Assembly: GCA_030531185.1 (NCBI GenBank) | Contig: JAUNOG010000015.1 | Location: 1-50,271, forward strand | DNA length: 50,271 nt | Origin: Ruminococcus sp. | GTDB lineage: Bacteria > Bacillota > Clostridia > Oscillospirales > Ruminococcaceae | Direction of reading: 5' to 3' | Shown: one piece after another, positions 200 to 17,302 of the stretch | Layout: every line of letters begins with the position of its first letter | How positions within the stretch are numbered: position 1 is the first letter of the stretch | The notes under the pieces: model-generated | What the model was told of the DNA's origin: nothing | Databases searched by the model: none | Seen by the model: the letters and a program-made list of their open reading frames with translations, nothing else | Program-made: the position numbers and the translations under genes

Positions 200-1084
200 T
201 TGGAGCTTACACAGTTACGTTATTTTATGGTAGTAGCACAGACCCAGCATATTACGAGAAGCGCGGAGATACTGCACATCGCGCAGCCCTCCCTCACCCA
301 GTCAATTCATCGTCTGGAGGACGATCTGGGCGTTCCGCTTTTCTCCGCAAAGGGACGAAACATTGTGCTTACCGAATACGGAAAATATTTTTACGAGAAG
401 CTGTGTCCTATTATAGAGGAACTGGACGCTCTGCCCGAAAAGCTGAAAATAAAAGCCAAGCTAAGCGGCGAGACTATACATATGAATGTGCTTGCCGCCT
501 CCGCTCTTGTGACCGAGGCTATTATAGACTACAAAAAGGACAGGAGCAAAATAAACTTCCAGTTTCTACAGAACCAGCAGGAGGAGCTGTATGACATTGA
601 GATAACCACCAAAATGTTCTATCAGATGAACAGCAGCGAGCAGAAAAACAAATTTGTATGCAGCGAAAAAATCTTCCTTGCCGTACCGAACAACGAAAAA
701 TATGAGGGAAGATCCTCCATACGGCTTGAGGATCTTATGAACGAGGGCTTTATCAGTCTTTTCGGTTCAAAGCAGTTCCGCACCATTACCAATAAATTCT
801 GTCACCACGCAGGATTTCACCCGAAAATTATCTTTGAAAGCGACAGTCCCGACGCTGTACGGAATATGATAGCCGCCAATATGGGCGTCGGTTTCTGGCC
901 CGAATTCACTTGGGGAACTATGAACAGCGATCAGGTAAAGCTATTGGAAATCGAAGACGTTTTCTGTTCCAGAGACATCGTTATTTCCTGCAACCTGAAC
1001 AAAACGGACAACGCCAATGTCATCGAGTTTTTTGAATTCCTGAAAAAATATTTTGAAAGCAGACGTATGCATCGGCACGATTAA
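200..1084 (+). CDS. LysR-family transcriptional regulator
   Basis: A 294-aa LysR-type regulator. The N-terminal winged helix-turn-helix (about 1-60) has the usual ELxQLRYF start, a HITRSAEILHIAQPSLTQSI recognition region and a DLGVPLF wing. A periplasmic-binding-protein-like effector domain follows (about 90-285). The start is TTG at 200, set by AAAGGAG at 184-190; the family-typical N-terminus begins exactly there. A T-N11-A box lies in its own leader, so autoregulation is likely. It sits directly upstream of the malate/fumarate operon and is a plausible regulator of it, but no second copy of the box was seen before mdh, so that link is inference. The effector ligand cannot be told from sequence. 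Confidence 0.9.
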   Translation: MELTQLRYFMVVAQTQHITRSAEILHIAQPSLTQSIHRLEDDLGVPLFSAKGRNIVLTEYGKYFYEKLCPIIEELDALPEKLKIKAKLSGETIHMNVLAASALVTEAIIDYKKDRSKINFQFLQNQQEELYDIEITTKMFYQMNSSEQKNKFVCSEKIFLAVPNNEKYEGRSSIRLEDLMNEGFISLFGSKQFRTITNKFCHHAGFHPKIIFESDSPDAVRNMIAANMGVGFWPEFTWGTMNSDQVKLLEIEDVFCSRDIVISCNLNKTDNANVIEFFEFLKKYFESRRMHRHD

Positions 1085-1170: not shown

Positions 1171-1199
1171 TTGTCAAAACGTATTTTTTTTGCTATAAT
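1171..1199 (+). promoter_or_regulatory. Promoter of the mdh-hdr-flx-frd-fum operon
   Basis: TTGTCA (1171-1176), 17-nt spacer, TATAAT (1194-1199), with a TG one base before the -10 (1191-1192), i.e. an extended -10. No other clear promoter was noticed between here and the hairpin at 12581, consistent with one roughly 11-kb transcript. Confidence 0.75.
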
Positions 1200-1370: not shown

Positions 1371-2318
1371 ATGGGTAGTAAAATTACCATCATCGGTGCG
1401 GGCAGTGTAGGTGCGACTATCGCTTACACACTGTCAAATGAAAGCGTCGCTTCTGAAATCGTTCTTATCGATATCGATAAGCGAAAGCTGGCGGGCGAAG
1501 TAATGGATATTATGCAGGGTACAGGTTTCCGCGATCCTATATCCGTTATTGCAGGCGATTACGAGGACGCTAAGGATTCGGATATCGTCATCATTACGTC
1601 GGGTATTGCAAGAAAACCGGGACAGACGCGTCTGGAGCTTGTACAGACAAACGTTGATATCCTCAAGAGCATTACTCCCGAGGTTGTAAAGGCTGCCCCT
1701 AATGCGCTTTACATAATCGTAAGCAATCCTGTGGATATTCTTACTTATGTATTCACAAAGATATCGGGACTTCCCGACAGACAGGTCATCGGCTCGGGCA
1801 CTCTGCTTGACACCACGAGACTTCGCGCCTGCATATCGGAAAAGTTCTCCGTTTCTCAGAGAAACATTCACGCTTACGTATTCGGTGAGCACGGCGACTC
1901 ATCGTTCGTTCCGTGGTCGTGCGCTGAGATCGCAGGCTTTGATTTTGACGACTATGCAAACTGGATGATCCAGAACGGAAAGCTTGACGCAGCTCCCGAC
2001 AAGGACGCTATTATCGAGTACGTTCACAAGTCCGGCGGACAGATCATTGCAAACAAGGGCGCGACCTTCTACGCTATCGCAGTTTCGGTATGCAGACTTT
2101 GCAACATTCTGCTTTCCGCATTCAACTCTATCATTACGGTTTCTTCTGTAATGCACGGCGAATACGGCATTGACGGATGCAGTCTCAGCACGCTGAACCT
2201 TGTAGGTCCAAAGGGTATCGAGGCTAAGCTGCCGCTCAAGCTCACGGACGAGGAAGTCGCTAAGCTTGTGGACAGCGCAAACAAGATGAAGGAAGTTATC
2301 AGTCATATCGACATTTAA
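1371..2318 (+). CDS. mdh: Malate dehydrogenase of the LDH-like fold (NAD-dependent)
   Basis: A 315-aa enzyme of the lactate/malate dehydrogenase family. It has the GAGSVG nucleotide loop (9-14), Asp34 after the second strand as expected for NAD, catalytic His174 in GEHGD, Asp147 and the substrate-binding arginines Arg87 and Arg150. In lactate dehydrogenases the substrate-loop residue (position 102 in LDH numbering) is Gln; here it is Arg81 in GIARKPGQTR, the residue that selects oxaloacetate/malate. Thr232, at LDH position 246, is still LDH-like, so the signature is mixed. The start is ATG 1371, which gives the family-typical N-terminus after a GGAG site; an in-frame ATG at 1299 would add an implausible extension. 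As first gene of an operon with fumarase and fumarate reductase, malate dehydrogenase activity (oxaloacetate + NADH -> malate) is favoured. Confidence 0.8.
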   Translation: MGSKITIIGAGSVGATIAYTLSNESVASEIVLIDIDKRKLAGEVMDIMQGTGFRDPISVIAGDYEDAKDSDIVIITSGIARKPGQTRLELVQTNVDILKSITPEVVKAAPNALYIIVSNPVDILTYVFTKISGLPDRQVIGSGTLLDTTRLRACISEKFSVSQRNIHAYVFGEHGDSSFVPWSCAEIAGFDFDDYANWMIQNGKLDAAPDKDAIIEYVHKSGGQIIANKGATFYAIAVSVCRLCNILLSAFNSIITVSSVMHGEYGIDGCSLSTLNLVGPKGIEAKLPLKLTDEEVAKLVDSANKMKEVISHIDI

Positions 2319-2343
2319 TTTTTAAGTGAAAGGGTTATTTAAA

Positions 2344-3141
2344 GTGATTAAATACAGTTACTATCCGGGCTGCACTTTGAGAACAAAGGCTAAAAAGCTT
2401 GACGCTTACGCTAAGGCGTCCGCAAAGGCTTTGGGCTTTGAGCTTGAGGAAATCGAAAACTGGCAGTGCTGCGGAGGAGTTTATCCTTTGGGCAGCGACG
2501 AGATCGCCACAAAGCTTTCCTCGGTACGCGCTCTCAACGAAGCAAAGGAAAAGGGTCAGGAGCTTGTAACTCTGTGCTCCGCCTGTCATCACGTTATCAA
2601 AAGAGTTAACGACGATATGAAGCAGAATGGGGACATCTGCACAAGAGCAAATAACTATATGAAGCTTGACGAGCCTTACAAGGGCGAGACGGAGGTCCTG
2701 CATTTTCTGGAGGTGCTCAGAGACAAGGTCGGCTTTGACGAGCTGAAGAAAAAGGTCGTAAATCCACTGAAAGGAAAGAAGATAGGCGCATACTACGGAT
2801 GTCTCCTGCTAAGACCCAGCAAGGTGCTTGAATTTGACAATCCCGAAAATCCAAAGATTATGGAGGATTTCATCAGGGCTATCGGCGCCGAGCCTGTTAT
2901 TTATCCTTACCGCAACGAATGCTGCGGAGGTCATATCGCTCTCAAGGAGAGACAAATGGCGGGCAATATGTCGACCAATATTATGAACAGCGCAGAGGGC
3001 TTCGGAGCAGAAATGCTTATTACAGCCTGTCCATTGTGCCTTTATAATATGAATAAGAATTCAACAAGCGAGCTGCCCGTTTACTACTTTACGGAACTTC
3101 TGGCAGAGGCTTTGGGCGTTAAAGAGGAGGTTTGCGAATAA
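2344..3141 (+). CDS. hdrB: Heterodisulfide reductase subunit B (HdrB)
   Basis: A 265-aa protein with two complete CCG domains, the ligands of the non-cubane iron-sulfur clusters of HdrB. The first has YPGC, QCCGG and CSACHH; the second has YYGC, ECCGG and CPLC. In methanogens HdrB reduces the CoM-S-S-CoB disulfide; in bacteria it is the terminal electron-delivering subunit of HdrABC complexes. The start is GTG 2344, with AAAGGG at 2331-2334 and the family-typical KYSYYPGC start; a GTG 18 nt upstream has no ribosome site. Its stop overlaps the hdrC start by one base. With no disulfide substrate gene nearby, its likely partner here is the SdhB-like protein at 8835-9509 (inference). Confidence 0.9.
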   Translation: MIKYSYYPGCTLRTKAKKLDAYAKASAKALGFELEEIENWQCCGGVYPLGSDEIATKLSSVRALNEAKEKGQELVTLCSACHHVIKRVNDDMKQNGDICTRANNYMKLDEPYKGETEVLHFLEVLRDKVGFDELKKKVVNPLKGKKIGAYYGCLLLRPSKVLEFDNPENPKIMEDFIRAIGAEPVIYPYRNECCGGHIALKERQMAGNMSTNIMNSAEGFGAEMLITACPLCLYNMNKNSTSELPVYYFTELLAEALGVKEEVCE

Positions 3142-3530
3142 TGGATAAATCGGTTAAGCAGGCTGAGCTTATACGGGAAATCAGCGGCGTAAACCCCTAT
3201 AAATGTATGAAATGCGGCAAATGCTCCGCCTCATGTCCCTCCTACGACGAAATGGACATCAAGCCTCATCAGTTCGTTTCTTATGTGATAAACGAGGATA
3301 TCGAGTCTTTGGTAAATTCAAAGTCGCTGTGGAAGTGTCTTTCCTGCTTTGCCTGCGTTGAACGCTGTCCGAGAGACGTTAAGCCGGGCAAGCTTGTGGA
3401 CGCTGCAAGACAGGCTGTTGTAAGACAGAGAGGCGAGGATTATCTGCTTGCGGACGAAATTCCCGAGCTTATCGACGACGAAACTCCTCAGCAGCTTCTG
3501 GTAAGCGCATTCAGAAAGTACAGGAGGTGA
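3141..3530 (+). CDS. hdrC: Heterodisulfide reductase subunit C (HdrC)
   Basis: A 129-aa dicluster ferredoxin with two CxxCxxCxxxCP motifs, CMKCGKCSASCP and CLSCFACVERCP, which bind two [4Fe-4S] clusters and wire HdrA to HdrB. The start is ATG 3141 behind GAGGAGG (3124-3130) and overlaps the hdrB stop as TAATG, indicating translational coupling. Length and motifs are typical of HdrC. Confidence 0.92.
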   Translation: MDKSVKQAELIREISGVNPYKCMKCGKCSASCPSYDEMDIKPHQFVSYVINEDIESLVNSKSLWKCLSCFACVERCPRDVKPGKLVDAARQAVVRQRGEDYLLADEIPELIDDETPQQLLVSAFRKYRR

Positions 3531-3537
3531 GCACGAT

Positions 3538-5526
3538 ATGCAGAGAATAGGTGTATTTGTATGCCACTGCGGCAGTAATATCGCCGCTACGGTAGACGTA
3601 AAAAAGGTTGTAGAGGTTATCGGTATGGAGCCGGGCGTGGTTTATGCCGAGGACTATCAGTATATGTGCTCCGAGGCAGGTCAGGAGAAGATCGCGGCGG
3701 CTATAAAGGAAAAGAACCTCACGGGCGTTGTAGTCTGCTCATGTTCGCCTCGTATGCATGAGACTACATTCAGAAAATGTGCCGAAAAGGCGGGTATCAA
3801 CCCTTATATGGTTGAGATCGCAAATATCCGTGAGCAGTGCTCGTGGATACATAAGGATATGGAGGAGGCTACCAAGAAGGCCGTTATTCTTGCAAGAGCG
3901 GCTGTCGCTAAGGTAAACCTCAATACTCCTCTTCAGCCGGGCGAGAGCAGAGTTACAAAGAGAGCTTTGGTCATCGGCGGCGGTATAGCAGGTATCCAAA
4001 CCGCTCTGGACATCGCGGACGCGGGCTATGAGGTAGATATCGTTGAGAAAACTCCGAGTATCGGCGGAAGAATGTCACAGCTTGACAAGACATTCCCTAC
4101 TCTGGACTGTTCGGCTTGTATCCTTACGCCGAAAATGGTTGACGCCGCGGCTCACGATAAGATAAAGATATATTCCTACAGCGAGGTAGAAAACGTAAGC
4201 GGCTTTGTGGGCGACTTTACGGTCGATATCAGAAAGAAAGCAAGATACGTTGATATGGACAAGTGTACGGGCTGCGGAGCTTGTCAGGAGAAGTGTCCTT
4301 CAAAGAAAACTCCCAGCGAGTTCAACAGAGGACTTAATACAAGAAGCGCTATCTACACTCCTTTCGCTCAGGCTATCCCTAATGTGCCTGTGATCGACCC
4401 CAACGCTTGTATCAAGCTCAAAACGGGCAAGTGCGGAGTATGCTCAAAGGTATGTCAGGCAGGCGCTATCGACTACGAGCAGAAGGACGAGATAATTACC
4501 GAAAAGTACGGCGCGATCGTCGTTGCAACGGGCTTTGACATCATCAAGCTTGACAACTACGACGAGTACGCTTACAGCCAGAGCAAGGACGTTGTTACTT
4601 CCCTCGAGCTGGAGCGTATTATGAACGCCGCAGGTCCTACAAAGGGTCATCTTGAGCGTCTTTCCGACGGAAAGGCTCCCAAGAATATAGTATTCATTCA
4701 GTGCGTAGGCAGCAGATGCTCCGACAACAGAGGAAAGAGCTACTGCTCGAAGATATGCTGTATGTACACGGCTAAGCACGCTATGCTTATCAGGGACAAG
4801 TATCCCGATACGAACGTTACCGTGTTCTACATAGACGTACGTACTCCCGGCAAGAACTTTGACGAATTCTACAGACGTGCCGTTGAGGAATATCACGTTA
4901 ACTACATCAAGGGACAGGTGGGCAAGGTAGCTCCTCAGCCCGACGGTACTCTTATGGTTCACGGCGTCGACCTCATCGACGGCAAGCAGATAAAAATGGA
5001 GGCGGATATGGTCGTTCTTGCAGCGGCTATCGAGCCTGATCCGACCGTAAGAAAGCTTGCTACTATGCTTACGGCAAGTATCGATACCAATAACTTCCTT
5101 ACCGAGGCTCACGCTAAGCTCCGTCCTGTGGAGTCTCCCACTGCGGGCGTATTCCTTTCGGGCGTTTCACAGGGACCTAAGGATATCCCCGAAACGGTTT
5201 CTCAGGCGGGCGCGGCGGCTGTTAAGGTCGTGGGACTTCTCGCTAAGGATAAGCTGCTTACTAACCCATGTACCGCACAGTCCGACGAACTGCTCTGCAA
5301 CGGCTGTTCGACTTGTGCGAATGTTTGTCCTTACGGAGCTATTTCCTATGAAGATAAGCTTATAAACGATCACGGTATCCGTGAGACAAGAAGAGTTGCT
5401 CAGGTAAATACCGCGCTCTGCCACGGCTGCGGAGCTTGTACGGTTGCTTGTCCTTCAGGCGCTATGGACCTTCAGGGCTTCTCTAACAGACAGATCATTG
5501 CGGAGGTGGACGCTATATGCCGATAA
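3538..5526 (+). CDS. hdrA: Heterodisulfide reductase subunit A (HdrA), bifurcating flavoprotein
   Basis: A 662-aa HdrA. In order: an N-terminal domain with VCHCGSNIA and CSCSPRMHE cysteines; an FAD Rossmann motif GGGIAGIQTALDIA (about residues 144-160); the conserved PTLDCSACILTPKM segment; an inserted ferredoxin pair (CTGCGACQEKCP, CGVCSKVC); the second half of the thioredoxin-reductase-like fold; and a C-terminal dicluster ferredoxin (CNGCSTCANVCP, CHGCGACTVACP). HdrA carries the bifurcating FAD in Hdr complexes and reduces ferredoxin with one electron of each pair. The ribosome site is AGGAGG upstream of ATG 3538. The 3' end overlaps the next gene by 10 nt. Nothing is truncated. Confidence 0.93.
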   Translation: MQRIGVFVCHCGSNIAATVDVKKVVEVIGMEPGVVYAEDYQYMCSEAGQEKIAAAIKEKNLTGVVVCSCSPRMHETTFRKCAEKAGINPYMVEIANIREQCSWIHKDMEEATKKAVILARAAVAKVNLNTPLQPGESRVTKRALVIGGGIAGIQTALDIADAGYEVDIVEKTPSIGGRMSQLDKTFPTLDCSACILTPKMVDAAAHDKIKIYSYSEVENVSGFVGDFTVDIRKKARYVDMDKCTGCGACQEKCPSKKTPSEFNRGLNTRSAIYTPFAQAIPNVPVIDPNACIKLKTGKCGVCSKVCQAGAIDYEQKDEIITEKYGAIVVATGFDIIKLDNYDEYAYSQSKDVVTSLELERIMNAAGPTKGHLERLSDGKAPKNIVFIQCVGSRCSDNRGKSYCSKICCMYTAKHAMLIRDKYPDTNVTVFYIDVRTPGKNFDEFYRRAVEEYHVNYIKGQVGKVAPQPDGTLMVHGVDLIDGKQIKMEADMVVLAAAIEPDPTVRKLATMLTASIDTNNFLTEAHAKLRPVESPTAGVFLSGVSQGPKDIPETVSQAGAAAVKVVGLLAKDKLLTNPCTAQSDELLCNGCSTCANVCPYGAISYEDKLINDHGIRETRRVAQVNTALCHGCGACTVACPSGAMDLQGFSNRQIIAEVDAICR

Positions 5527-5957
5527 ATAATGAAGAATTCAGACCGAAGATCGTCGCTTTCTGCTGTAACTGGTGCAGTTATGCGGGAGCGGATCTGGCA
5601 GGCAGCAGCCGTCTTGCATATCCTGCCGACGTTAAGATAATCAGAGTTCCGTGCTCTTGCAGAGTTAATCCTATGTTTATCCTCCGTGCCTTTGAAAAGG
5701 GCGCAGACGGAGTTATTATGTGCGGCTGCCACCCCGGCGACTGTCATTACAGCACAGGTAACTACTATGCAAGACGCCGTATGACGCTGTTGTTCTCAAT
5801 GCTGGATTATATCGGCGTTGAGCAGGGACGTACCCGTGTTGAATGGGTATCTGCGGCTGAGGGCGTTAAGTTCTCCACAACTATGAACGAGTTTGTTGAG
5901 AAGATCCGTTCTCTTGGCAAGAACGTAAGATTGGAGGATTTGAGATGCAGGAATTGA
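5517..5957 (+). CDS. flxD: MvhD/FlxD-type electron-transfer subunit
   Basis: A 146-aa protein of the MvhD (F420-nonreducing hydrogenase delta) family, which binds a [2Fe-2S] cluster and hands electrons from the donor module to HdrA. Visible cysteine motifs are FCCNWCSYAGAD near the N-terminus, PCSCR, and CGCHPGDCHY. It overlaps hdrA upstream by 10 nt and the next gene by 13 nt, so it is tightly coupled. No hydrogenase large or small subunit is encoded nearby; the donor module is instead FlxABC, as in the Desulfovibrio flxABCD-hdrABC cluster. Confidence 0.88.
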   Translation: MPINNEEFRPKIVAFCCNWCSYAGADLAGSSRLAYPADVKIIRVPCSCRVNPMFILRAFEKGADGVIMCGCHPGDCHYSTGNYYARRRMTLLFSMLDYIGVEQGRTRVEWVSAAEGVKFSTTMNEFVEKIRSLGKNVRLEDLRCRN

Positions 5958-6919
5958 TTACCCGCATTAAAGAGCTCCTTGCCGACAAGACCGTTGACCG
6001 CGCTATCGGCTGGAGAGCGGGAGATTTAGGATACAATCCCGAACCGGCATATTTCAATTCGGTTGAGGATATGGACAATTTTGTATACGACGGATTCTGC
6101 GGCGCAAACCTCAGCAAGATGATGATAGAAGCGGCTAAGCTGGAGGGTAAGACACTTGTTTGTCTCAAGCCCTGCGATACATACAGCTTCAATCAGCTTA
6201 TCAAGGAGCACCGCGTTGACCGCGAAAAGACGTATATTATCGGCGTAGGCTGCAAGGGAAAGCTTGACCCGAGAAAGCTTGAGGAGCTTGGTATCAGGGG
6301 CGTTACGACTGTTAAGGGTGCAGAGCTTGAGGGCGACTGCGAGACCTTGAAATTCGATACTGTCTACGGCGAAAAGGAATGCGCTTACAGCGATCTTATG
6401 CTTGAAAGATGTCACGTATGCAAGGGTAAGGAACATAAGGTTTTCGACGAGGTGATCGGCGAGTCAAAGGACACCTCCACAGGAGACAGATTTGACGAGG
6501 TCGCGGCTATCGAGGCTATGTCCCCCGAGGAAAAGTTCGCTTTCTTCCAGGCTGAGCTGAGCAAGTGTATCAGATGCAACGCCTGCCGCAATGCGTGTCC
6601 TGCGTGCAGCTGCCGCAAGTGCGTATTCGACAGCAACAAATTCGACAGCGCACAGAAAGCAAACACCGTTTCCTTTGAGGAAAAGATGTTCCACATTATC
6701 CGCGCGTTCCACGTTGCTGGAAGATGTACAGACTGCGGCGAATGCAGCAGAGTATGTCCGCAGGGCATTCCGCTGCACCTGTTCAACAGAAAGTTCATTA
6801 AGGATATCAACGAGTTCTACGGCGAATATCAGGCGGGCGAGGACACCGAGTCAAAGGCTCCGCTTACGAATTTCACATTCGACGACGTTGAACCAAGTAT
6901 TGTAGGAGAAAGGGGATAA
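5945..6919 (+). CDS. flxC: FlxC-like iron-sulfur electron-transfer subunit
   Basis: A 324-aa protein with an N-terminal domain resembling coenzyme F420 hydrogenase beta-type proteins (LVCLKPCDTYSFNQLI; GVGCKGKLD) and a C-terminal dicluster ferredoxin (CIRCNACRNACPACSC about residues 205-220; CTDCGECSRVCPQG about 258-271). By family and position it matches FlxC of NADH-dependent Flx-Hdr complexes. It starts at ATG 5945 behind GGAGG, inside the 3' end of flxD. It probably relays electrons between FlxB/FlxA and FlxD. Confidence 0.75.
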   Translation: MQELITRIKELLADKTVDRAIGWRAGDLGYNPEPAYFNSVEDMDNFVYDGFCGANLSKMMIEAAKLEGKTLVCLKPCDTYSFNQLIKEHRVDREKTYIIGVGCKGKLDPRKLEELGIRGVTTVKGAELEGDCETLKFDTVYGEKECAYSDLMLERCHVCKGKEHKVFDEVIGESKDTSTGDRFDEVAAIEAMSPEEKFAFFQAELSKCIRCNACRNACPACSCRKCVFDSNKFDSAQKANTVSFEEKMFHIIRAFHVAGRCTDCGECSRVCPQGIPLHLFNRKFIKDINEFYGEYQAGEDTESKAPLTNFTFDDVEPSIVGERG

Positions 6920-6923
6920 TGCT

Positions 6924-7964
6924 ATGCTGAAAATGCCAAAAAGCAATATGACGGCATTATTCCGTCTGATAAATGAAAATCAGGAGCTTTTTGTTCCTGT
7001 TAAAAAAGCAAATCAGGTCAATTTCGGACTTTGGGACGATGAGGCTGAGGTTTCTCTCGAAACCCTAAAGACCGTAAAGTCCCCCAAGGACGTTTTCTTC
7101 CCGCAGAGCGAAACGCTCTATACCTGCGTTAAGGACGGAAAGAAGATCTCCATTAAGCCCGAGGAGCTTGCAAGCAGAGATTTCGTAGTTTTCGGTATGA
7201 AGCCCTGCGACGTCCGCGCGGTAGACGTGCTGGACAGAGTTTTCCTCACCGAACCGTGCGACTCATTCTACAAGGCTCGCCGCGACCACGGCACTATCGT
7301 GTCCCTCGCCTGCGGAGAACCGTCTGTAAGCTGTTTCTGCAAGGCTTTCGGTATCGACTGCACAGAGCCGAACGCAGACGCTGCGATATGGCTTACGGAG
7401 GACAGCCTTTACTGGAAGGCTATGACCGAAAAGGGCGAAAAGCTTACGGAGACTGTAAAGTCCTTGTTTGAAGACGCCGACGCTGCGGACGAGGAAAAGC
7501 TTGACGCTGTTAAGGAAACTACAAAGGCGATCGTTGAAAAGCTCCCCTATTCAAATCTTTCTCTGGAGGGCTGGAACGGCGACGCGCTTACGGAAAAATT
7601 CAATTCACCCGTATGGGAGGAGCTTTACAAGCCTTGTCTTGCCTGCGGTACTTGTACTTTTGTATGTCCTACCTGCCAGTGCTACGACATCAAGGACTAC
7701 AACACAGGTCACGAGATAAAGCGTTACCGCTGCTGGGATTCGTGTATGTATTCCGACTTTACAATGATGGCTCACGGAAACAACCGTACAACTCAGCTTC
7801 AGCGTTTCCGACAGAGATTTATGCACAAGCTTGTGTACTTCCCCGCCAACAACGACGGAATGTATTCCTGCGTAGGCTGCGGCAGATGTGTTGACAAGTG
7901 CCCGTCCTCGCTGAACATCGTCAAGGTAATTAAAGCATTTGAAAAGCAGGAGGGTGATAAATAA
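6924..7964 (+). CDS. flxB: FlxB-like / AsrA-family 4Fe-4S protein
   Basis: A 346-aa protein of the anaerobic sulfite reductase A/hydrogenase beta family. It has the GMKPCDVRAVDVLD and ACGEPSVSCFC segments in the N-terminal half and a C-terminal ferredoxin region with CLACGTCTFVCPTCQCYD and CVGCGRCVDKCPS. In Asr, sulfhydrogenases and Flx complexes this subunit takes electrons from the NAD(P)H flavoprotein (AsrB/FlxA), the next gene here. ATG 6924 follows AGGAGAAAGGGG; the stop overlaps the flxA start as TAATG. No sulfite reductase C subunit is present, so an Asr operon is excluded. Confidence 0.8.
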   Translation: MLKMPKSNMTALFRLINENQELFVPVKKANQVNFGLWDDEAEVSLETLKTVKSPKDVFFPQSETLYTCVKDGKKISIKPEELASRDFVVFGMKPCDVRAVDVLDRVFLTEPCDSFYKARRDHGTIVSLACGEPSVSCFCKAFGIDCTEPNADAAIWLTEDSLYWKAMTEKGEKLTETVKSLFEDADAADEEKLDAVKETTKAIVEKLPYSNLSLEGWNGDALTEKFNSPVWEELYKPCLACGTCTFVCPTCQCYDIKDYNTGHEIKRYRCWDSCMYSDFTMMAHGNNRTTQLQRFRQRFMHKLVYFPANNDGMYSCVGCGRCVDKCPSSLNIVKVIKAFEKQEGDK

Positions 7965-8818
7965 TGGGCGAATGCGTATGTCATCAGAATTTTACACTCG
8001 ATACGCTGATCCCGAAGATCGGCGTTATCACGGATATCCGACAGGAAACTCCGGACGTTAAGACCTTTCGTGTGAACGCTCCCGAGGGCGGCAAGGTGTT
8101 TGAGCATATGCCGGGACAATGCGCTATGCTCTGCGCTCCGGGCGTAAGCGAGGGTATGTTTTCTATTACGTCCTCCCCTACAAACAAGGAGTATCAGGAG
8201 TTCAGCATTAAAAAGTGCGGAATTCTCACAGAATATCTCCACGATTTGCAGGTAGGCGACGAGATCACTATCAGAGGTCCTTACGGCAACCACTTCCCTG
8301 TTGAAACTGAGCTGAAGGGCAAGGATCTGCTGTTTATCGCAGGCGGTATCGGTCTTGCTCCGCTAAGAAGCGTTATAAACTACGTTCTCGACAACAGAGA
8401 GGATTACGGCAAGATAGATATTCTCTACGGCTCGCGTTCCGCAAACGATCTTGTTCAGCTCAAGGAGATCAAGGAAAAGTGGATGACCGCTCCCGATGTA
8501 AACGTTCATCTCACTATCGACAGAGAGCAGGAAGGCTGGGACGGTCACGTAGGCTTTGTTCCCGCTTATCTTAAAGAGCTTGGTTTCTCCAATGACAAGA
8601 CTGCTCTTCTATGCGGTCCTCCGATCATGATAAAGTTCACTCTTCAGGGACTTATCGAAATGGGCTTCTCAAAGGAGCAGGTTTACACAACGCTTGAGCT
8701 GCGTATGAAGTGCGGAATAGGAAAATGCGGACGCTGCAACATCGGTTCAAAGTATGTCTGCAAGGACGGTCCCGTATTCCGCTGCGACGAGCTGGACGAA
8801 CTCCCCAACGAGTATTAA
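7964..8818 (+). CDS. flxA: FlxA-like NADH-binding FAD/2Fe-2S oxidoreductase
   Basis: A 284-aa ferredoxin-NADP-reductase-like protein. The FAD-binding barrel has MFSITSSP and RGPYGNHFP; the nucleotide domain has FIAGGIGLAPLRSVI, LYGSRSANDL and LLCGPPIM; the C-terminus has a [2Fe-2S] motif CGIGKCGRCNIG...C. It belongs to the AsrB/PyrK/hydrogenase-gamma family and is the expected NADH entry point of the Hdr-Flx complex. NADH rather than NADPH is inferred from Flx precedent, not shown by a residue. The start overlaps the flxB stop. Confidence 0.85.
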   Translation: MGECVCHQNFTLDTLIPKIGVITDIRQETPDVKTFRVNAPEGGKVFEHMPGQCAMLCAPGVSEGMFSITSSPTNKEYQEFSIKKCGILTEYLHDLQVGDEITIRGPYGNHFPVETELKGKDLLFIAGGIGLAPLRSVINYVLDNREDYGKIDILYGSRSANDLVQLKEIKEKWMTAPDVNVHLTIDREQEGWDGHVGFVPAYLKELGFSNDKTALLCGPPIMIKFTLQGLIEMGFSKEQVYTTLELRMKCGIGKCGRCNIGSKYVCKDGPVFRCDELDELPNEY

Positions 8819-8834
8819 GAAAGGACTTTGTAAA

Positions 8835-9509
8835 ATGGAAAATATGGTAAATGTATATTTTTTCGGTAAAAAATACAGCGTACCTGCGTCCTTGACGATC
8901 ATGACCGCTATGGAATATGCAGGCTACACGCTTAAAAGAGGCTGCGGCTGCCGTCACGGATTTTGCGGCGCCTGCGCTACGATCTACAGAATAAAGGGCA
9001 AGAACGAGCTGAAAACCTGTCTTGCCTGTCAAAAGCAGGTCGAGGAGGGTATGTATGTGGCAAGCATTCCTTTCTTCCCGACAGATAAGAGAACCTACGA
9101 TATTTCCGAGATAAAGCCCACACAGCAGATAATGATGGAGCTTTATCCCGAGATCTACAGCTGTATCGGCTGCAACGCCTGCACAAACGCTTGTACTCAG
9201 AACCTCAACGTTATGCAGTACATAGCTTACGCTCAGAGAGGCGAGTTTGAAAAGTGCGCTGAGGAGTCCTTCGACTGCGTAGCCTGCGGCTGCTGTACTG
9301 TAAGATGTCCCGCAGGTATCTCGCACCCGATGGTAGGTCTGCTGGCAAGAAGACTTACGGGCAAGTACATTGCTCCCGAGACAGAACACCTAAAAGAGCG
9401 TGTTGAAGAAATACGCCAAGGCGCTTACGACGAGCTTATTGAGCAGATTATGCAGAAGCCTATCACGGAAATGCAGGAGCTCTACAATACAAGAGAGATC
9501 GAGAAATAA
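8835..9509 (+). CDS. SdhB/TfrB-like fumarate reductase iron-sulfur subunit
   Basis: A 224-aa protein. The N-terminal plant-type [2Fe-2S] domain has CGCRHGFCGAC (37-47) and CLAC (62-65); two further clusters follow, CIGCNACTNAC (110-120) and CVACGCCTVRCP (148-159). This matches fumarate reductase/succinate dehydrogenase B subunits and the N-terminal half of methanogen thiol:fumarate reductase TfrB, but it lacks TfrB's C-terminal CCG (HdrB-like) half; a separate HdrB is encoded in the same operon. ATG 8835 is chosen because AGAAAGGA lies 10 nt upstream; the longer reading frame starts inside flxA. It should carry electrons from HdrB/HdrC to the flavoprotein encoded next. Confidence 0.82.
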   Translation: MENMVNVYFFGKKYSVPASLTIMTAMEYAGYTLKRGCGCRHGFCGACATIYRIKGKNELKTCLACQKQVEEGMYVASIPFFPTDKRTYDISEIKPTQQIMMELYPEIYSCIGCNACTNACTQNLNVMQYIAYAQRGEFEKCAEESFDCVACGCCTVRCPAGISHPMVGLLARRLTGKYIAPETEHLKERVEEIRQGAYDELIEQIMQKPITEMQELYNTREIEK

Positions 9510-9521
9510 GGAGGGCATAAA

Positions 9522-11132
9522 ATGAGCGCAATTTATTCAGAGAGCATGATGGAGTCAGTCAGGAAGGTCGAGGCTACAAGAGCTGCCCGTATGGCAACAG
9601 AGCCCAGACGTTTGACTGCCGAAGAAAAGGACGCCCTTTTAAAAGAGTTTCATCCTGACTTTAACGAGGCTTCATTTGCAGAAATAAAAGTAGGTCCCAA
9701 CAAGGGACAGAAAGCTCCTTTAGAGCTTGCGGAGATGCTTCATTCAACAAGCCGTCTTATGACAGACAAGGTTGATATTTCAAAGGTTGATTATGACGTA
9801 GACGTACTCGTTATCGGCGGCGGCGGAGCAGGCTCTTCCTGCGCTATCGAGGCTCATAACGCAGGCGCAAACGTAATGATCGTTACAAAGCTCCGTATCG
9901 GCGACGCTAATACAATGATGGCTGAGGGCGGAATACAGGCGGCGGACAAACCGAACGATTCGCCTGTTCAGCATTACCTCGACTGTTTCGGCGGCGGACA
10001 CTTTGCCGCTAAGCCCGAGCTTGTAAAAAGACTTGTTATGGAAGCTCCCGACGCTATCAAGTGGCTCAACGACCTTGGCGTAGAGTTTGACAAGGAACCG
10101 GACGGCACAATGGTAACAACTCACGGCGGCGGAACATCACGCAAGAGAATGCACGCTGCTAAGGACTATTCCGGCGCAGAGATAATGCGTACCATAAGAG
10201 ACGAGGTCATAAACCTCGGAATTCCCGTAGTTGAATTCACATCAGCTGTTGAGCTTATTATGGACGACAAGGGTCAGGCAGCAGGCGCGGTTCTCCTTAA
10301 TATGGAAACAGGTGACTATCTGGTTGCAAGGGCAAAGACCGTTGTTATCGCTACAGGCGGCGCAGGCAGAATGCACTACAACGGTTTCCCGACCTCAAAT
10401 CACTACGGCGCAACAGCCGACGGTCTCGTACTTGCTTACAGAGCGGGCGCACCTCTGCTTTATCAGGATTCTATCCAGTATCACCCGACAGGCGCCGTAT
10501 ATCCTTCACAGATCCTCGGCGCGCTCGTAACCGAAAAGGTTCGTTCGGTAGGCGCACAGCTTGTAAACGTAAACGGTGAAGCTTACATTCACCCGCTCGA
10601 GACCCGTGACGTAAACGCTTCGGGCGTTATCCGTGAGTGCAGAGAGGGCAGAGGCGTTGAAGCTCCCAACGGCGAAAAGGGCGTTTGGCTCGACACTCCG
10701 ATGATTGAGATACTCGGCGGCGAGGGTACTATCGAGAAGAGAATTCCCGCAATGTTCCGTATGTATATGAACTATGGCATTGATATGCGCAAGCTCCCGA
10801 TTATGATCTACCCGACCCTTCACTATCAGAACGGCGGCGTTGAGATCGACGGCGACGGCTTTACAAAGACTATCCCTAATCTCCTCGTTGCAGGCGAAGC
10901 AGCAGGCGGTATCCACGGAAGAAACAGACTTATGGGCAACTCGCTGCTTGACGTTATCGTATTCGGAAGAAACGCAGGCAAGAAGGCTGCCGCTAAATAT
11001 CAGAGCGTAGAGCTTGGCGAAATGAACCTTGACCATATTGCCGCATATGACGCAGAGTTAAAGAAAGCAGGAGTAGAAACAAACAAGGTTTCACCGCTTC
11101 TTCTTCCTAAGTACGCTCGTCACGAAAGATAA
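9522..11132 (+). CDS. frdA: Soluble fumarate reductase flavoprotein subunit
   Basis: A 536-aa flavoprotein of the FrdA/SdhA/NadB family. It has an FAD motif GGGGAG (99-104), a capping domain and the catalytic set: HPTGAVYP, TEKVRSVGAQLVN, ETRDV, YPTLHYQNGGV and NRLMGNSLLDVIVFGR. The RSHT histidine that holds FAD covalently in membrane enzymes is missing (KLRIGDANTMMAEGGI, about 123-138), so FAD is probably non-covalent, as in soluble fumarate reductases and NadB. A helical N-terminal extension of about 90 residues precedes the FAD domain. ATG 9522 follows AAGGAGGG. No membrane anchor gene exists in the operon. Fumarate -> succinate is the likely direction given the upstream malate dehydrogenase and fumarase. 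Confidence 0.88.
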   Translation: MSAIYSESMMESVRKVEATRAARMATEPRRLTAEEKDALLKEFHPDFNEASFAEIKVGPNKGQKAPLELAEMLHSTSRLMTDKVDISKVDYDVDVLVIGGGGAGSSCAIEAHNAGANVMIVTKLRIGDANTMMAEGGIQAADKPNDSPVQHYLDCFGGGHFAAKPELVKRLVMEAPDAIKWLNDLGVEFDKEPDGTMVTTHGGGTSRKRMHAAKDYSGAEIMRTIRDEVINLGIPVVEFTSAVELIMDDKGQAAGAVLLNMETGDYLVARAKTVVIATGGAGRMHYNGFPTSNHYGATADGLVLAYRAGAPLLYQDSIQYHPTGAVYPSQILGALVTEKVRSVGAQLVNVNGEAYIHPLETRDVNASGVIRECREGRGVEAPNGEKGVWLDTPMIEILGGEGTIEKRIPAMFRMYMNYGIDMRKLPIMIYPTLHYQNGGVEIDGDGFTKTIPNLLVAGEAAGGIHGRNRLMGNSLLDVIVFGRNAGKKAAAKYQSVELGEMNLDHIAAYDAELKKAGVETNKVSPLLLPKYARHER

Positions 11133-11147
11133 TTGGAGGTTTTGACA

Positions 11148-11990
11148 ATGCGTGAAATTAATGCAGATATTATCACCGACGTTGTTGAGAGACTGTGCAT
11201 TGCCGCTAACGAACATCTTCCCGAAGATGTAAAGTGTGCGATCAAGAACTGCCGTGCCTGCGAGGACGGCGTTATCGCACAGGGTATTCTCGACGACATC
11301 ATCAAGAATTATGAGATCGCCGACGCTGAGAATGTTCCTATCTGCCAGGATACGGGTATGGCTTGCGTATTCCTCGAGATTGGGCAGGACGTTCACATCA
11401 CAGGCGCAAATCTTGCAGACGCAGTTAACGAGGGCGTCCGCAGAGGTTACGACAAGGGTTACCTCAGAAAGTCCGTTGTTAAAGACCCTGTTCGCAGAGG
11501 TAATACAGGCGACAACACTCCCGCTATGATCTACACTGAGATCGTCCCTGGCGAGAACATCAAGATCACCGTAGGTCCAAAAGGCTTCGGCAGCGAGAAT
11601 ATGAGCGCGATCAGAATGTTCAAGCCGTCCCACGGTCTTCAGGGTATTAAGGACTTCATTCTTGAAACTGTTGAGAATGCAGGGCCAAATCCCTGCCCTC
11701 CTATGGTAGTAGGCGTCGGTATCGGCGGTACTTTCGACAAGGCGGCTCTGCTTGCCAAGAAGGCTCTTATGAGACCTATCGACTCCGAGAACCCCGACCC
11801 GTTCTACGCAGATCTTGAAAAGGAAATGCTTGAAAAGGTAAATCAGCTCGGTATCGGTCCTCAGGGCTTCGGCGGTAAGACAACTGCGATCGGTCTGAAT
11901 ATCGAGACTATGCCTACTCATATTGCAGGTATGCCCTGCGCTATCAACATCAACTGCCACGTTACACGTCACAAAACGGAGGTGATATAA
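11148..11990 (+). CDS. fumA: Class I fumarate hydratase, alpha (N-terminal) subunit
   Basis: A 280-aa subunit of the two-subunit, oxygen-sensitive [4Fe-4S] fumarase (malate <-> fumarate + water). Family landmarks are [10 protein letters not shown] (Cys66), [40 protein letters not shown] and [16 protein letters not shown] 11148 is chosen because GGAGG (11135-11139) lies 8 nt upstream; in-frame TTG codons before it overlap that site. The stop abuts the beta-subunit start. A related family is L(+)-tartrate dehydratase alpha; operon context favours fumarase. Confidence 0.9.
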
Positions 11991-12551
11991 ATGGAAAAGC
12001 ATATTACACTGCCCCTTACCGAGGAGCTTGCGAAAACTCTCCACGCAGGAGACAGAGTTTACCTCACAGGTACCATTTATACTTCCCGTGACGCAGGTCA
12101 CAAGAGAATGTGCGAGGCTCTTGCAAAGGGCGAGAAAATTCCCTTTGACCCCACAGACGCTACGATATACTATGTAGGTCCTACGCCTGCAAAGCCCGGA
12201 CAGGTCATCGGTTCGGCAGGTCCCACTACAAGCGGACGTATGGACGCTTACGCTCCTACAATGATGTCCGTAGGCGCAAGAGGAATGATAGGCAAGGGCG
12301 CGCGTCTGCCCGAGGTAGTTGACGCTATGAAAAAGTACAGCGGCGTTTACTTCGGAGCAATCGGCGGCGCAGGAGCTTTGCTTGCAAAGTGCATTAAGAG
12401 TGCGGAGCTTATCGCTTATGAGGACTTAGGCGCTGAGGCTCTGAGAAAGCTTTATGTCGAGGATATGCCTCTTATGGTCATCATCGACTGCGAGGGAAAC
12501 AATCTGTACGAAACAGGCCGTGCGGAGTACCTCGAAAAAAATAAGAAGTAA
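11991..12551 (+). CDS. fumB: Class I fumarate hydratase, beta (C-terminal) subunit
   Basis: A 186-aa beta subunit of split class I fumarase. It shows the family pattern TLHAGDRVYLTGTIYTSRDAGH (split here as TLHAGDRVYLTG then TIYTSRDAGH), YVGPTPAKPGQVIGSAGPT, TSGRMDAYAP and MIGKGA. The start immediately follows the alpha stop behind GGAGGTGATATAA. It completes the oxaloacetate-to-succinate set. The operon's coding part ends here, 30 nt before a hairpin. Confidence 0.9.
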   Translation: MEKHITLPLTEELAKTLHAGDRVYLTGTIYTSRDAGHKRMCEALAKGEKIPFDPTDATIYYVGPTPAKPGQVIGSAGPTTSGRMDAYAPTMMSVGARGMIGKGARLPEVVDAMKKYSGVYFGAIGGAGALLAKCIKSAELIAYEDLGAEALRKLYVEDMPLMVIIDCEGNNLYETGRAEYLEKNKK

Positions 12552-12580
12552 CAGTATATTTTCCCTGAAAAGCAAAAACG

Positions 12581-12616
12581 TCTGCGTACTGCGGAGAAAA
12601 TCTCCGCAGCGCAGAT
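12581..12616 (+). terminator. Hairpin at the end of the fumarate operon
   Basis: CTGCGGAGA (12589-12597) pairs with TCTCCGCAG (12601-12609), extended by an outer TCTGCG/CGCAGA pair across a two-base bulge. The following TTTCTTG is a poor U-tract, so this may be a leaky terminator or mRNA stabiliser that still allows read-through into the transporter gene. Confidence 0.55.
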
Positions 12617-12740
12617 TTCTTGCTGAATTAGTCTGTGATAAAAGGCTGTTCAAAGTCCTTTCAAATGGAGTTTGTACACTTTTTATTGCAGATTAGCAGG
12701 GTATAGTAATAGTAAAGTAATAATAAGGAGAAAATTTAAT

Positions 12741-13988
12741 ATGGCATTTCAGTTTATCGAGGCTGCCGGCACTTATATTTTCAATATGAAAGCAATGGCT
12801 ATCGTTTTGTTTTTCGTATTTGCAATTATCGCTGTCGGCTATCTGCTGGGCAGAATTTCCGTTAAGGGAGTATCTCTTGGCACTGCGGCTATCTTCATTG
12901 TCGCTCTTTTCGCAGGACACTTTAACGGCATCCTCACAGGCGAAGGCGGAGCATGGGAGGCAGAGGCAGGACAGGTCGCGCATTATTTCTCGCTGATTCA
13001 AAATTTGGGTCTTGTGCTCTTTGTAACCTCTGTCGGACTTATTGCCGGCCCCAGCTTTTTTAAGAATTTGAAGAAAAACGCTAAATCCTACGTACTCTTG
13101 GGCGCAATAATCATTGCGGCAGGCGCGGGAACCTGCGCTCTCATTACATTGTTCGCACCTAAAATGAACTCAGCAATGAGTACAGGTCTGCTTTCAGGCT
13201 CGCTTACAAGTACTCCTGCTTTTGCGGCGGCTCAGGGCGCGCTGGAGGGCAAGGTTTCAGACGAGGTATTCAAGCAGATATCGGTAGGTCACGCAGTTGC
13301 ATATCCTTTCGGCGTTATCGGCGTCGTACTTTTTGTACAGATAATTCCAAAGCTTTTAAAAGCAAATATGGACGAAGAAAGACAGAAGCTTGTAGTAGTT
13401 GACAGCGGCAAGGAAGTAAAGGGCGAAGAAAAGAAGCTGTTCACAATGGACAAATTCGGTCTCGGCTCATTTGCTCTTGCAGTTATGGTCGGTCTTATTC
13501 TTGGCTGTATCAACATTCCTCTCGGCGGAGGTTCTTCATTCAATCTCGGCACAACAGGCGGCCCGCTGATCGTCGGACTTCTCTTCGGTCACTTCGGCAG
13601 AATAGGCAAACTCAGCCTCAAGGTAGACGACAAAATGCTCAGCATTTTCCAGGAGCTTGGTCTTGTACTTTTCCTTATCGGCGCAGGCGTTGACGGAGGA
13701 GCAGGCTTTGTGTCAACACTCAGCGAGTACGGCGCGATCCTCTTCCTGTGGGGAGTTCTTATGACATTGGTTCCTATGATCATAGGTTTCCTTTTTGCAA
13801 AATATGTACTCAAGCTCAGCCTTTTCAACAACCTCGGTTCACTTACAGGCGGTATGACAAGTACTCCTGCTCTCGGCGCTCTTATCAATATGACAGGTAC
13901 GCCGAATGTTGCGTCGGCTTATGCGGCGACTTATCCTATTGCGCTTATCCTTGTAGTACTTGCATCGCAGTTCCTGACATATCTTTAA
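12741..13988 (+). CDS. AspT/YidE-family membrane transporter (putative C4-dicarboxylate or aspartate exchanger)
   Basis: A 415-aa hydrophobic protein with about ten TM segments and an internal duplication. Each half carries a GLVLF(V/L) helix followed by a conserved STPA re-entrant motif (SGSLTSTPAFAA and TGGMTSTPALGA). This is the Asp-Al exchanger fold seen in aspartate:alanine antiporters, succinate exporters such as SucE and YidE/YbjL. The central cytosolic loop is short and lacks the TrkA-C domains of AspT. ATG 12741 follows AAGGAG (12725-12730). Position right after the fumarate/succinate operon suggests C4-dicarboxylate exchange or export. The substrate is inferred. Confidence 0.75.
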   Translation: MAFQFIEAAGTYIFNMKAMAIVLFFVFAIIAVGYLLGRISVKGVSLGTAAIFIVALFAGHFNGILTGEGGAWEAEAGQVAHYFSLIQNLGLVLFVTSVGLIAGPSFFKNLKKNAKSYVLLGAIIIAAGAGTCALITLFAPKMNSAMSTGLLSGSLTSTPAFAAAQGALEGKVSDEVFKQISVGHAVAYPFGVIGVVLFVQIIPKLLKANMDEERQKLVVVDSGKEVKGEEKKLFTMDKFGLGSFALAVMVGLILGCINIPLGGGSSFNLGTTGGPLIVGLLFGHFGRIGKLSLKVDDKMLSIFQELGLVLFLIGAGVDGGAGFVSTLSEYGAILFLWGVLMTLVPMIIGFLFAKYVLKLSLFNNLGSLTGGMTSTPALGALINMTGTPNVASAYAATYPIALILVVLASQFLTYL

Positions 13989-14000
13989 CTGAATAAATTT

Positions 14001-14028
14001 ATGCGTCCGCTCGTCGGGCGCATTTTTT
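14001..14028 (+). terminator. Rho-independent terminator after the transporter
   Basis: ATGCGTCCG (14001-14009) and CGGGCGCAT (14015-14023) form a 9-bp stem with one G-U pair and a 5-nt loop, followed by TTTTTT. It closes the succinate region. Confidence 0.9.
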
Positions 14029-17298: not shown

Positions 17299-17302
17299 AA
17301 AA

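Follow-up and report, generated by a model that had tools for sequence, protein, structure and literature searches.

A fumarate reductase gene linked to Flx-Hdr genes in an operon of Ruminococcus sp. and its relatives

The operon and its products

We analyzed a 50,271-nucleotide stretch of DNA from the gut-type anaerobe Ruminococcus sp. (contig JAUNOG010000015.1 of assembly GCA_030531185.1; hereafter the window), near the start of which lies an operon joining a fumarate reductase gene to the genes of an Flx-Hdr system. Past position 17300, coverage of the window consisted of a listing of open reading frames. Between positions 1371 and 13988, the window encodes malate dehydrogenase (MDH), HdrB, HdrC, HdrA, FlxD, FlxC, FlxB, FlxA, an SdhB-like protein, the fumarate reductase flavoprotein FrdA, the alpha and beta subunits of fumarase, and a permease. 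As a preliminary description of this DNA had stated, all of the reading frames are open, follow one another in this order, and lie on the plus strand. The operon is real and coherent, and the idea of such a system was proposed in 2019 for another bacterium. The description also spoke of many overlaps, which is true of 4 junctions, taking the starts as given; 7 others are gaps of 0 to 16 bases, and one of 189 bases precedes the permease gene.

Conservation was followed in the best 80 of at least 559 FrdA relatives from contigs of named records, all at 70% identity or more. The nine-gene order HdrBCA-FlxDCBA-SdhB-FrdA is intact in all 54 loci that have at least 7.2 kb of sequence upstream of FrdA, with all seven FlxABCD-HdrABC subunits in one cluster as in the window, and SdhB adjoins FrdA in 74 of the 74 loci where its place is visible. 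This bears out the claim that a cytosolic fumarate reductase is genetically tied to Flx-Hdr. Part of the conservation is shared descent, since the loci are close relatives. The outer genes are less constant companions: MDH lies directly upstream of HdrB in 29/50 loci, fumarase within 3.5 kb of FrdA in 51/64, and the permease within 5 kb downstream of FrdA in 33/58.

The Hdr subunits retain the residues expected for their cofactors. HdrB (2326..3141; PF02754) matches the HdrB of solved Hdr complexes (E 2.9e-33) and carries two CCG sites, all 10 cluster cysteines of which are kept in 54/54 rows; it may start at GTG 2326 or GTG 2344, the ribosome site being better placed at 2344. HdrC (3132..3530), identified by profile matches, has two 4Fe-4S motifs whose 8 cysteines are kept in 52/52 rows and starts at TTG 3132 or ATG 3141, with the ribosome site better placed at the latter. 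HdrA (3538..5526) is full length and aligns end to end with the methanogen HdrA of solved complexes (5odc_A, E 1.6e-205). Its cluster cysteines are retained, nearly all of its cysteines are conserved across rows, and K413 (53/53 rows) and E359 correspond by alignment to K409 and E356 of the solved protein, which we take to be positions at the bifurcating FAD; a bifurcating FAD is thus putative here.

The Flx part consists of an FlxD/MvhD-type Fe-S subunit (5517..5957; PF02662, 184.8 bits), the Fe-S subunit FlxC (5945..6919), recognized by a Fer4_8 domain and its position within the operon, and FlxB (6924..7964), a sulfhydrogenase beta-like protein with PF17179 that scores 202 and 168 bits with the ShyB and HydB models, under their cut-offs. 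FlxA (7964..8818; PF00175, PF10418) is the FAD- and NAD(P)-binding entry subunit and is closest to the sulfhydrogenase gamma subunit (9nez_C, E 2e-58); the donor may accordingly be either NADH or NADPH.

Downstream of FlxA, the SdhB-like protein (8835..9509, start ATG 8835) combines a 2Fe-2S domain with an RnfC/HdrC-like domain whose two 4Fe-4S motifs are closest to RnfC. Its motifs have four cysteines, no 3Fe-4S-type motif was found by reading of the sequence, and a Pfam search gave no CCG domain of its own; against the TfrB model it scores 28.6 bits and HdrB 38.9 bits, with a cut-off of 385. FrdA (9522..11132; PF00890, 229 bits) has TfrA as its nearest NCBIfam model (NF004900), yet far under cut-off (331 versus 718 bits). 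The residues H321, T337, E338, R362, H434, and R469 are kept in 80/80 rows and are presumably catalytic, as judged from alignment to solved Sdh. Asn130, likewise present in 80/80 rows, occupies the position of the histidine that binds FAD covalently in complex II, and lack of this histidine is expected of a fumarate-reducing rather than a succinate-oxidizing enzyme. FrdA also lacks the SdhA C-terminal domain and has an N-terminal extension of about 90 residues (HPD...GPNKG), for which a search of solved structures returned no match (best E 2). One frdA reading in the set, from Sporofaciens musculi (L060:10001-11611), contains stop codons and is either an assembly error or a broken gene.

The remaining genes of the operon suggest a complete reductive branch. 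The gene at 1371..2318 belongs to the lactate/malate dehydrogenase family and exceeds the cut-off of the NCBIfam L-lactate dehydrogenase model (334 bits, cut-off 303.6). We nevertheless reject lactate dehydrogenase and retain the original name malate dehydrogenase because Arg81, found in 36/36 aligned MDH rows, occupies what we take to be the substrate-selecting residue of the family, where arginine specifies malate. Class I fumarase is encoded by an alpha gene (11148..11990; NF004885, 419 bits, over cut-off; PF05681) and a beta gene (11991..12551; NF005310, 289.6 bits, over cut-off; PF05683). The permease (12741..13988), called a carboxylate transporter in the preliminary description, is of the AspT/YidE type (PF06826; TIGR01625 over cut-off); the family assignment holds, and the protein is a putative succinate exporter, succinate being the presumed substrate. 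The operon would then cover the whole branch from oxaloacetate through malate and fumarate to succinate, and probably export as well.

Three flanking features, a regulator gene, a promoter-like site, and a hairpin, lie on the plus strand. A LysR-type gene at 200..1084, with a GltC-type NCBIfam model as its best match (166.7 bits, under the cut-off of 350), is possibly the regulator of the operon; the 80 FrdA loci contain no relative of it at 90% coverage, and weaker ones occur in three (L041, L054, and L110). A promoter-like site (TTGTCA-17-TATAAT with TG, a consensus match only) lies at 1171..1199, in a region with 34 such matches compared with 17.3 after shuffling, about twofold, so that a single match is no proof. 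Opposed promoter-like sites, with 11/12 matches on each strand, overlap within the LysR-MDH gap at 1149-1199. A terminator-like hairpin of 9 pairs, 6 of them G-C, with a T tail follows the operon at 14001..14023.

Distribution and genomic settings of FrdA

Genome surveys comprised 394 genomes of the order, 391 of the class, and 398 of the phylum, with the window genome counted in each. Within the order, 97 genomes match FrdA at E 1e-50, and 66 of these carry the same FrdA (at least 63% identity); the other 31 matches, at 31-38% identity, are probably other flavoproteins, L-aspartate oxidase and the like. HdrA was found at E 1e-100 in 65 genomes, and the two proteins pair nearly one to one: both occur in 62 genomes, FrdA only in 4, HdrA only in 3, and neither in 325 (Fisher p 1.8e-63, uncorrected for kinship). 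By reading of coordinates, they share a contig in 59 of the 62. Two of the FrdA-only genomes (G202, G253) hold fragments at contig ends and two (G179, G286) are real cases; among the HdrA-only genomes, G096 has a 47% relative in another setting, and in G142 and G380 the contig end cuts off the place of FrdA. FrdA was found in 54 genomes of the class survey, and 43 genomes of the phylum survey match it, 4 of which (39-40% identity, without the N-terminal part) were set aside. The preliminary description had offered the operon as a general explanation for succinate formation in Ruminococcus-like bacteria; with 66/394 genomes of the order carrying it, and only 6 of these, the window included, among the 42 or more genomes sampled from its own family, that generality does not hold.

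The relationships of the window FrdA do not seem to follow those of its host. Among the matches listed, it shares 92% identity with a protein of a horse-gut metagenome-assembled genome (MAG) and 88% with those of Blautia luti and B. schinkii, and four genomes from other orders of the class reach 89-92%. Its best match within its own order is 81% among the 394 genomes, and its own family reaches 69-71%. In a tree of 59 FrdA rows, the window falls into a starred clade (100/99) of 14, the other 13 of which are 8 rows titled or placed as Lachnospiraceae, 2 from other orders (L161, L162), and 3 with titles that give no order. The tree forces at least 8 changes of the label "own order," a soft count, as some rows titled Oscillospiraceae, although unlabeled, could be members of the order.

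More distant relatives place FrdA in a series of other settings. From 39 FrdA places outside the window genome in the phylum survey, 20 stretches were chosen. A full Hdr-Flx set is present in three (L184 and L185, where SdhB-FrdA comes first, and L187), HdrCBA-FlxD without FlxAB in three (L175, L176, L177), and only HdrC-HdrB beside SdhB-FrdA, without HdrA, in two (L178, L183). This series, from HdrCB through HdrCBA-FlxD to HdrCBA-FlxDCBA, fits electrons reaching SdhB-FrdA via HdrB and HdrC, and the linkage of Hdr-Flx to SdhB-FrdA persists after rearrangement (L157, L184, L185). The HdrA-like proteins that accompany FlxD and SdhB-FrdA can be giant, with 1070 residues in L175:4534-15744, 1489 in L177:6222-16591, and 1092 in L176:12284-15562. 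L175 also holds genes for 2-oxoacid:ferredoxin oxidoreductase and succinyl-CoA synthetase, and L177, by reading, for the latter; judged by gene content, sets of this type look like a reverse tricarboxylic acid (TCA) cycle module. In Ilyobacter polytropus DSM 2926 (Fusobacteriota), plasmid pILYOP01 has the identical nine-gene order at 44-68% identity, adjoining a gene for aspartate ammonia-lyase, an enzyme that makes fumarate.

The SdhB-FrdA pair also occurs with simpler partners. A NuoF-like gene follows it in Pseudoroseomonas (L171:7264-10867, by Pfam) and, together with a DctA-like carrier, in Cupriavidus metallidurans (L170:9324-14364, by reading), so that NADH and C4-dicarboxylates are again tied to SdhB-FrdA; these proteobacterial sets may possibly be soluble NADH:fumarate reductases of another make. 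Orphan SdhB-FrdA pairs in the same order were seen in L165:7892-10251, with a class II fumarase beside it by reading, and L166:3367-5660; they come from the HdrA-lacking genomes G179 and G286 and can serve as natural controls that lack Flx-Hdr. Another genome (G855) carries a pair of FrdA genes separated by about 90 kb (L188, L189), one with SdhB and fumarase and the other in a stretch where no SdhB was found. The N-terminal extension is present in all six FrdA proteins compared (window, Ilyobacter, Pseudoroseomonas, Cupriavidus, L157, and L165). A role as an Hdr docking piece was rejected as a general rule, the extension being kept in NuoF-linked and orphan FrdA; as far as these alignments go, it marks the FrdA type.

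A candidate soluble NAD(P)H:fumarate oxidoreductase

It is likely that electrons flow directly from NADH to fumarate through the products of this operon. On balance, we favor a reading that goes further, in which fumarate reductase and Flx-Hdr make up one soluble NAD(P)H:fumarate oxidoreductase that bifurcates electrons to ferredoxin. The nine proteins would form, or act as, this enzyme: FlxA would oxidize NAD(P)H, FlxB/FlxC and FlxD would relay the electrons, and the HdrA FAD would split them. The up-potential electron would pass HdrC, HdrB, and the SdhB-like adaptor in turn and arrive at the FrdA FAD, where fumarate is reduced, and the down-potential electron would go to ferredoxin, giving a net reaction of 2 NADH + fumarate + Fd to succinate + Fdred. 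The genes, their motifs, their linkage, and their co-occurrence are observed, whereas the single physical complex, the electron path, the preference for NADH over NADPH, and the ferredoxin branch are all features that we infer. The proposal that fumarate replaces a disulfide as acceptor is supported in part, in that no DsrC was found, the cluster cysteines and two FAD-site residues of HdrA are kept, and the energetics are favorable: with potentials of +33 mV for fumarate, -280 to -320 mV for NADH, and -400 to -500 mV for ferredoxin, the calculated yield of the net reaction is -18 to -53 kJ/mol.

The host genome is a MAG of 2.48 Mb in 121 contigs, estimated as 87% complete, and this completeness bounds each absence reported from it. 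It contains a gene for phosphoenolpyruvate carboxykinase (PEPCK) and genes for two FeFe hydrogenases, one trimeric (NuoE-like, NuoF-like, and HydA, the last scoring 674.8 bits with group A6, cut-off 765) and one monomeric of group B, over cut-off; the two lie about 8 kb apart (L121:4516-18112). As the preliminary description expected, no sdhC-type membrane anchor turned up (0 matches to Sdh_cyt, PF01127, the one anchor family searched), and, judged by its genes, the operon probably needs no membrane enzyme for succinate formation. Neither Rnf nor a NiFe hydrogenase or Ech-type enzyme was found in the MAG; because of this, ferredoxin electrons in this genome would most likely leave as H2 via the two FeFe hydrogenases, and the gain would be substrate-level. 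By arithmetic, a coupled enzyme without Rnf gives succinate and acetate at 0.67:1.33 with 2 H2 and 3.33 ATP per glucose, compared with 1:1, 1 H2, and 3.0 ATP for a plain NADH enzyme. In relatives with Rnf, reduced ferredoxin would drive ion pumping. Rnf is missing in 22 of the 66 FrdA genomes and 39 of the 328 others (p 5e-5), a difference uncorrected for kinship that we do not use as proof.

Several observations weigh against this reading. One is that Rnf, which the membrane energy gain needs and which the preliminary description had expected, was not found in the MAG. A gap in the assembly may account for this, because 40 listed genomes of the same family have Rnf, including all five other genomes of the family that carry FrdA. 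Hdr is not essential to FrdA, because SdhB-FrdA occurs in G179 and G286, both listed as 99% complete, where a search at E 1e-100 gave no HdrA, and 12 of the 20 other-class stretches have FrdA without Hdr (in one of them, L192, the contig reaches just 3.2 kb upstream); some of the 12 adjoin fumarase, pyruvate carboxylase (L180), or multiheme cytochrome genes (L179, and L191 by reading). Across 42 loci, FrdA distances correlate with Hdr/Flx distances at 0.52-0.59, lower than the values among Hdr/Flx themselves (0.64-0.90), so that strict co-evolution of FrdA and Hdr was not seen; at the level of sequence, this speaks against a tight, co-evolving interface between FrdA and Hdr/Flx. SdhB and fumarase fit Hdr/Flx better (0.66-0.80 and 0.65-0.81), and because FrdA fits less well than they do, FrdA seems to have been swapped between operons of the same plan. 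Lastly, the portions of the literature consulted show no complex, no NADH:fumarate activity, and no ferredoxin reduction.

The alternative that survives best is a plain soluble NADH:fumarate reductase, in which Flx-Hdr merely conducts electrons, no ferredoxin is reduced, and the cell gains by getting rid of NADH. The step from NADH to fumarate spans enough potential to run uncoupled, and in Proteobacteria a simple NuoF lies beside SdhB-FrdA. On the other side, HdrA is retained at full length, together with its clusters and the residues of its FAD site, even though such a much simpler partner exists, and to our knowledge characterized Hdr complexes of this type bifurcate. We therefore regard the plain enzyme as unlikely. 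It is also how the enzyme of B. luti is modeled: PMC12773636 (2026) describes 504 mU/mg of methyl-viologen:fumarate reductase on glucose and strong frdAB transcription and treats Frd as NADH-dependent, with Hdr, heterodisulfide, and Flx absent from its main text. In B. luti MSK.16.34, possibly a different strain from the one studied there, frdA lies behind HdrBCA-FlxDCBA-SdhB (L046). The same study reports in B. luti the pair of FeFe hydrogenases that the window's genome also has and, on sorbitol with phosphinate, 1.9 mM H2 and 0.67 mM acetate (PMC12773636), from which we compute an H2 excess over acetate of 1.23 mM. This excess would fit an extra route from NADH to ferredoxin, but also HydABC, reversed Rnf, or entry of acetyl-CoA into biomass, and product balances of B. 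luti are not a decisive test of coupling, since Rnf there can return ferredoxin electrons to NADH.

A thiol route, in which HdrB, as in Desulfovibrio, would reduce a small disulfide or redox protein and the resulting thiol would feed FrdA/SdhB as in methanogen Tfr, with no direct contact between Hdr and Frd, appears improbable. In its favor, HdrB keeps two intact CCG sites, which make up the disulfide site of classical Hdr, in 54/54 rows, and TfrA is the closest NCBIfam model to FrdA. The SdhB-like protein, however, has no CCG domain of its own, and coenzyme M and coenzyme B (CoM/CoB) thiols are methanogen cofactors; DsrC was not found over cut-off in the MAG (best E 0.35), and we reject it as the acceptor for this genome as far as assembled. 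Reverse running, with succinate oxidized and electrons of FrdA and ferredoxin confurcated to NAD, is very improbable: a core relative in L175 does stand with succinyl-CoA synthetase and 2-oxoacid:ferredoxin oxidoreductase genes, but that ferredoxin-dependent enzyme fits the reductive direction too, the covalent-FAD histidine is absent (Asn130), and MDH, fumarase, and permease in the operon together with PEPCK in the genome constitute a reductive branch.

The bifurcating enzyme that we favor can be set within a wider and more tentative picture, which we hold with less than even confidence. In it, SdhB plus the HPD-type FrdA would be a mobile plug-in core, wired in different lineages to NuoF, HdrCB, giant HdrA, or Flx-Hdr, and the version wired to Flx-Hdr would be a fully soluble machine in which fumarate drives the reduction of ferredoxin. 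Where the host has neither Rnf nor Ech, this machine would act together with FeFe hydrogenases as a valve from NADH to H2, powered by fumarate, and raise ATP by about 11% without a membrane complex. It would be common in gut Clostridia, including B. luti, where it would have been taken for an ordinary fumarate reductase.

Earlier proposals and known systems

The idea is not new. PMC7282089 (2020) describes a "succinate operon" of Pseudoclostridium thermosuccinogenes in which the genes for Flx-Hdr and fumarate reductase stand together with those for fumarate hydratase and a putative succinate transporter; for the coupling of ferredoxin to fumarate reduction it refers to Ramos 2015 and to a preprint of 2019 by Koendjbiharie and van Kranenburg. 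According to the same paper, the operon was up about 4-fold at 1% CO2, although the rise was not significant for every subunit, and earlier studies that it cites saw almost no succinate under H2 but the opposite effect with Na2S. In tubeworm symbionts, where tfrAB is interspersed with flxABCD-hdrABC and korABCD, Flx-Hdr was proposed to feed Tfr and Kor (PMC6315080), a related proposal. No enzymatic proof that fumarate drives ferredoxin reduction by Flx-Hdr appears among the titles and abstract openings searched, mostly of open-access literature. The overall interpretation is supported in part: its soluble fumarate reductase tied to Flx-Hdr is upheld, and its novelty, its Rnf, and its generality are unsupported or weakened.

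What the present analysis adds is the near one-to-one pairing of HdrA and FrdA, the plug-in character of SdhB-FrdA and its apparent spread through gene exchange, and hosts available in culture. B. luti and I. polytropus are named cultured species with the genes, which makes the 2019 proposal directly testable, and CRISPRi has been reported for P. thermosuccinogenes (PMC9044749). The succinate that gut Clostridia produce acts on hosts and on cross-feeding; should the ferredoxin branch prove true, the ATP and H2 yields calculated for many gut fermenters would have to be revised, and fumarate would join the short list of acceptors able to drive ferredoxin reduction.

Compared by description, the P. 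thermosuccinogenes operon likewise unites fumarase, Flx-Hdr, fumarate reductase, and a transporter, but fumarase comes first by locus tags, MDH lies outside the operon as described, and Rnf and Ech are in the genome (PMC7282089). The tubeworm-symbiont cluster shares the proposal that Flx-Hdr feeds fumarate reduction and differs in serving a reverse TCA cycle in Gammaproteobacteria (PMC6315080), whereas the window holds a fermentation operon. FlxABCD-HdrABC of Desulfovibrio vulgaris has the same seven Hdr/Flx subunits, to which the window adds an adjoining SdhB-like adaptor and FrdA in a genome where DsrC was not found. Methanogen TfrAB resembles the window system in its TfrA-like FrdA and in its Fe-S and CCG parts, which in the window are split over the SdhB-like protein, HdrC, and HdrB; the window proteins score under the TfrA and TfrB cut-offs, there is no fused TfrB, and the donor is probably NAD(P)H rather than CoM/CoB thiols. 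With complex II and quinol:fumarate reductase, FrdA shares the flavoprotein family and catalytic residues, but the window system has an extra N-terminal part and differs in having no anchor found, no covalent-FAD histidine, no 3Fe-4S-type motif (by reading), and no C-terminal domain.

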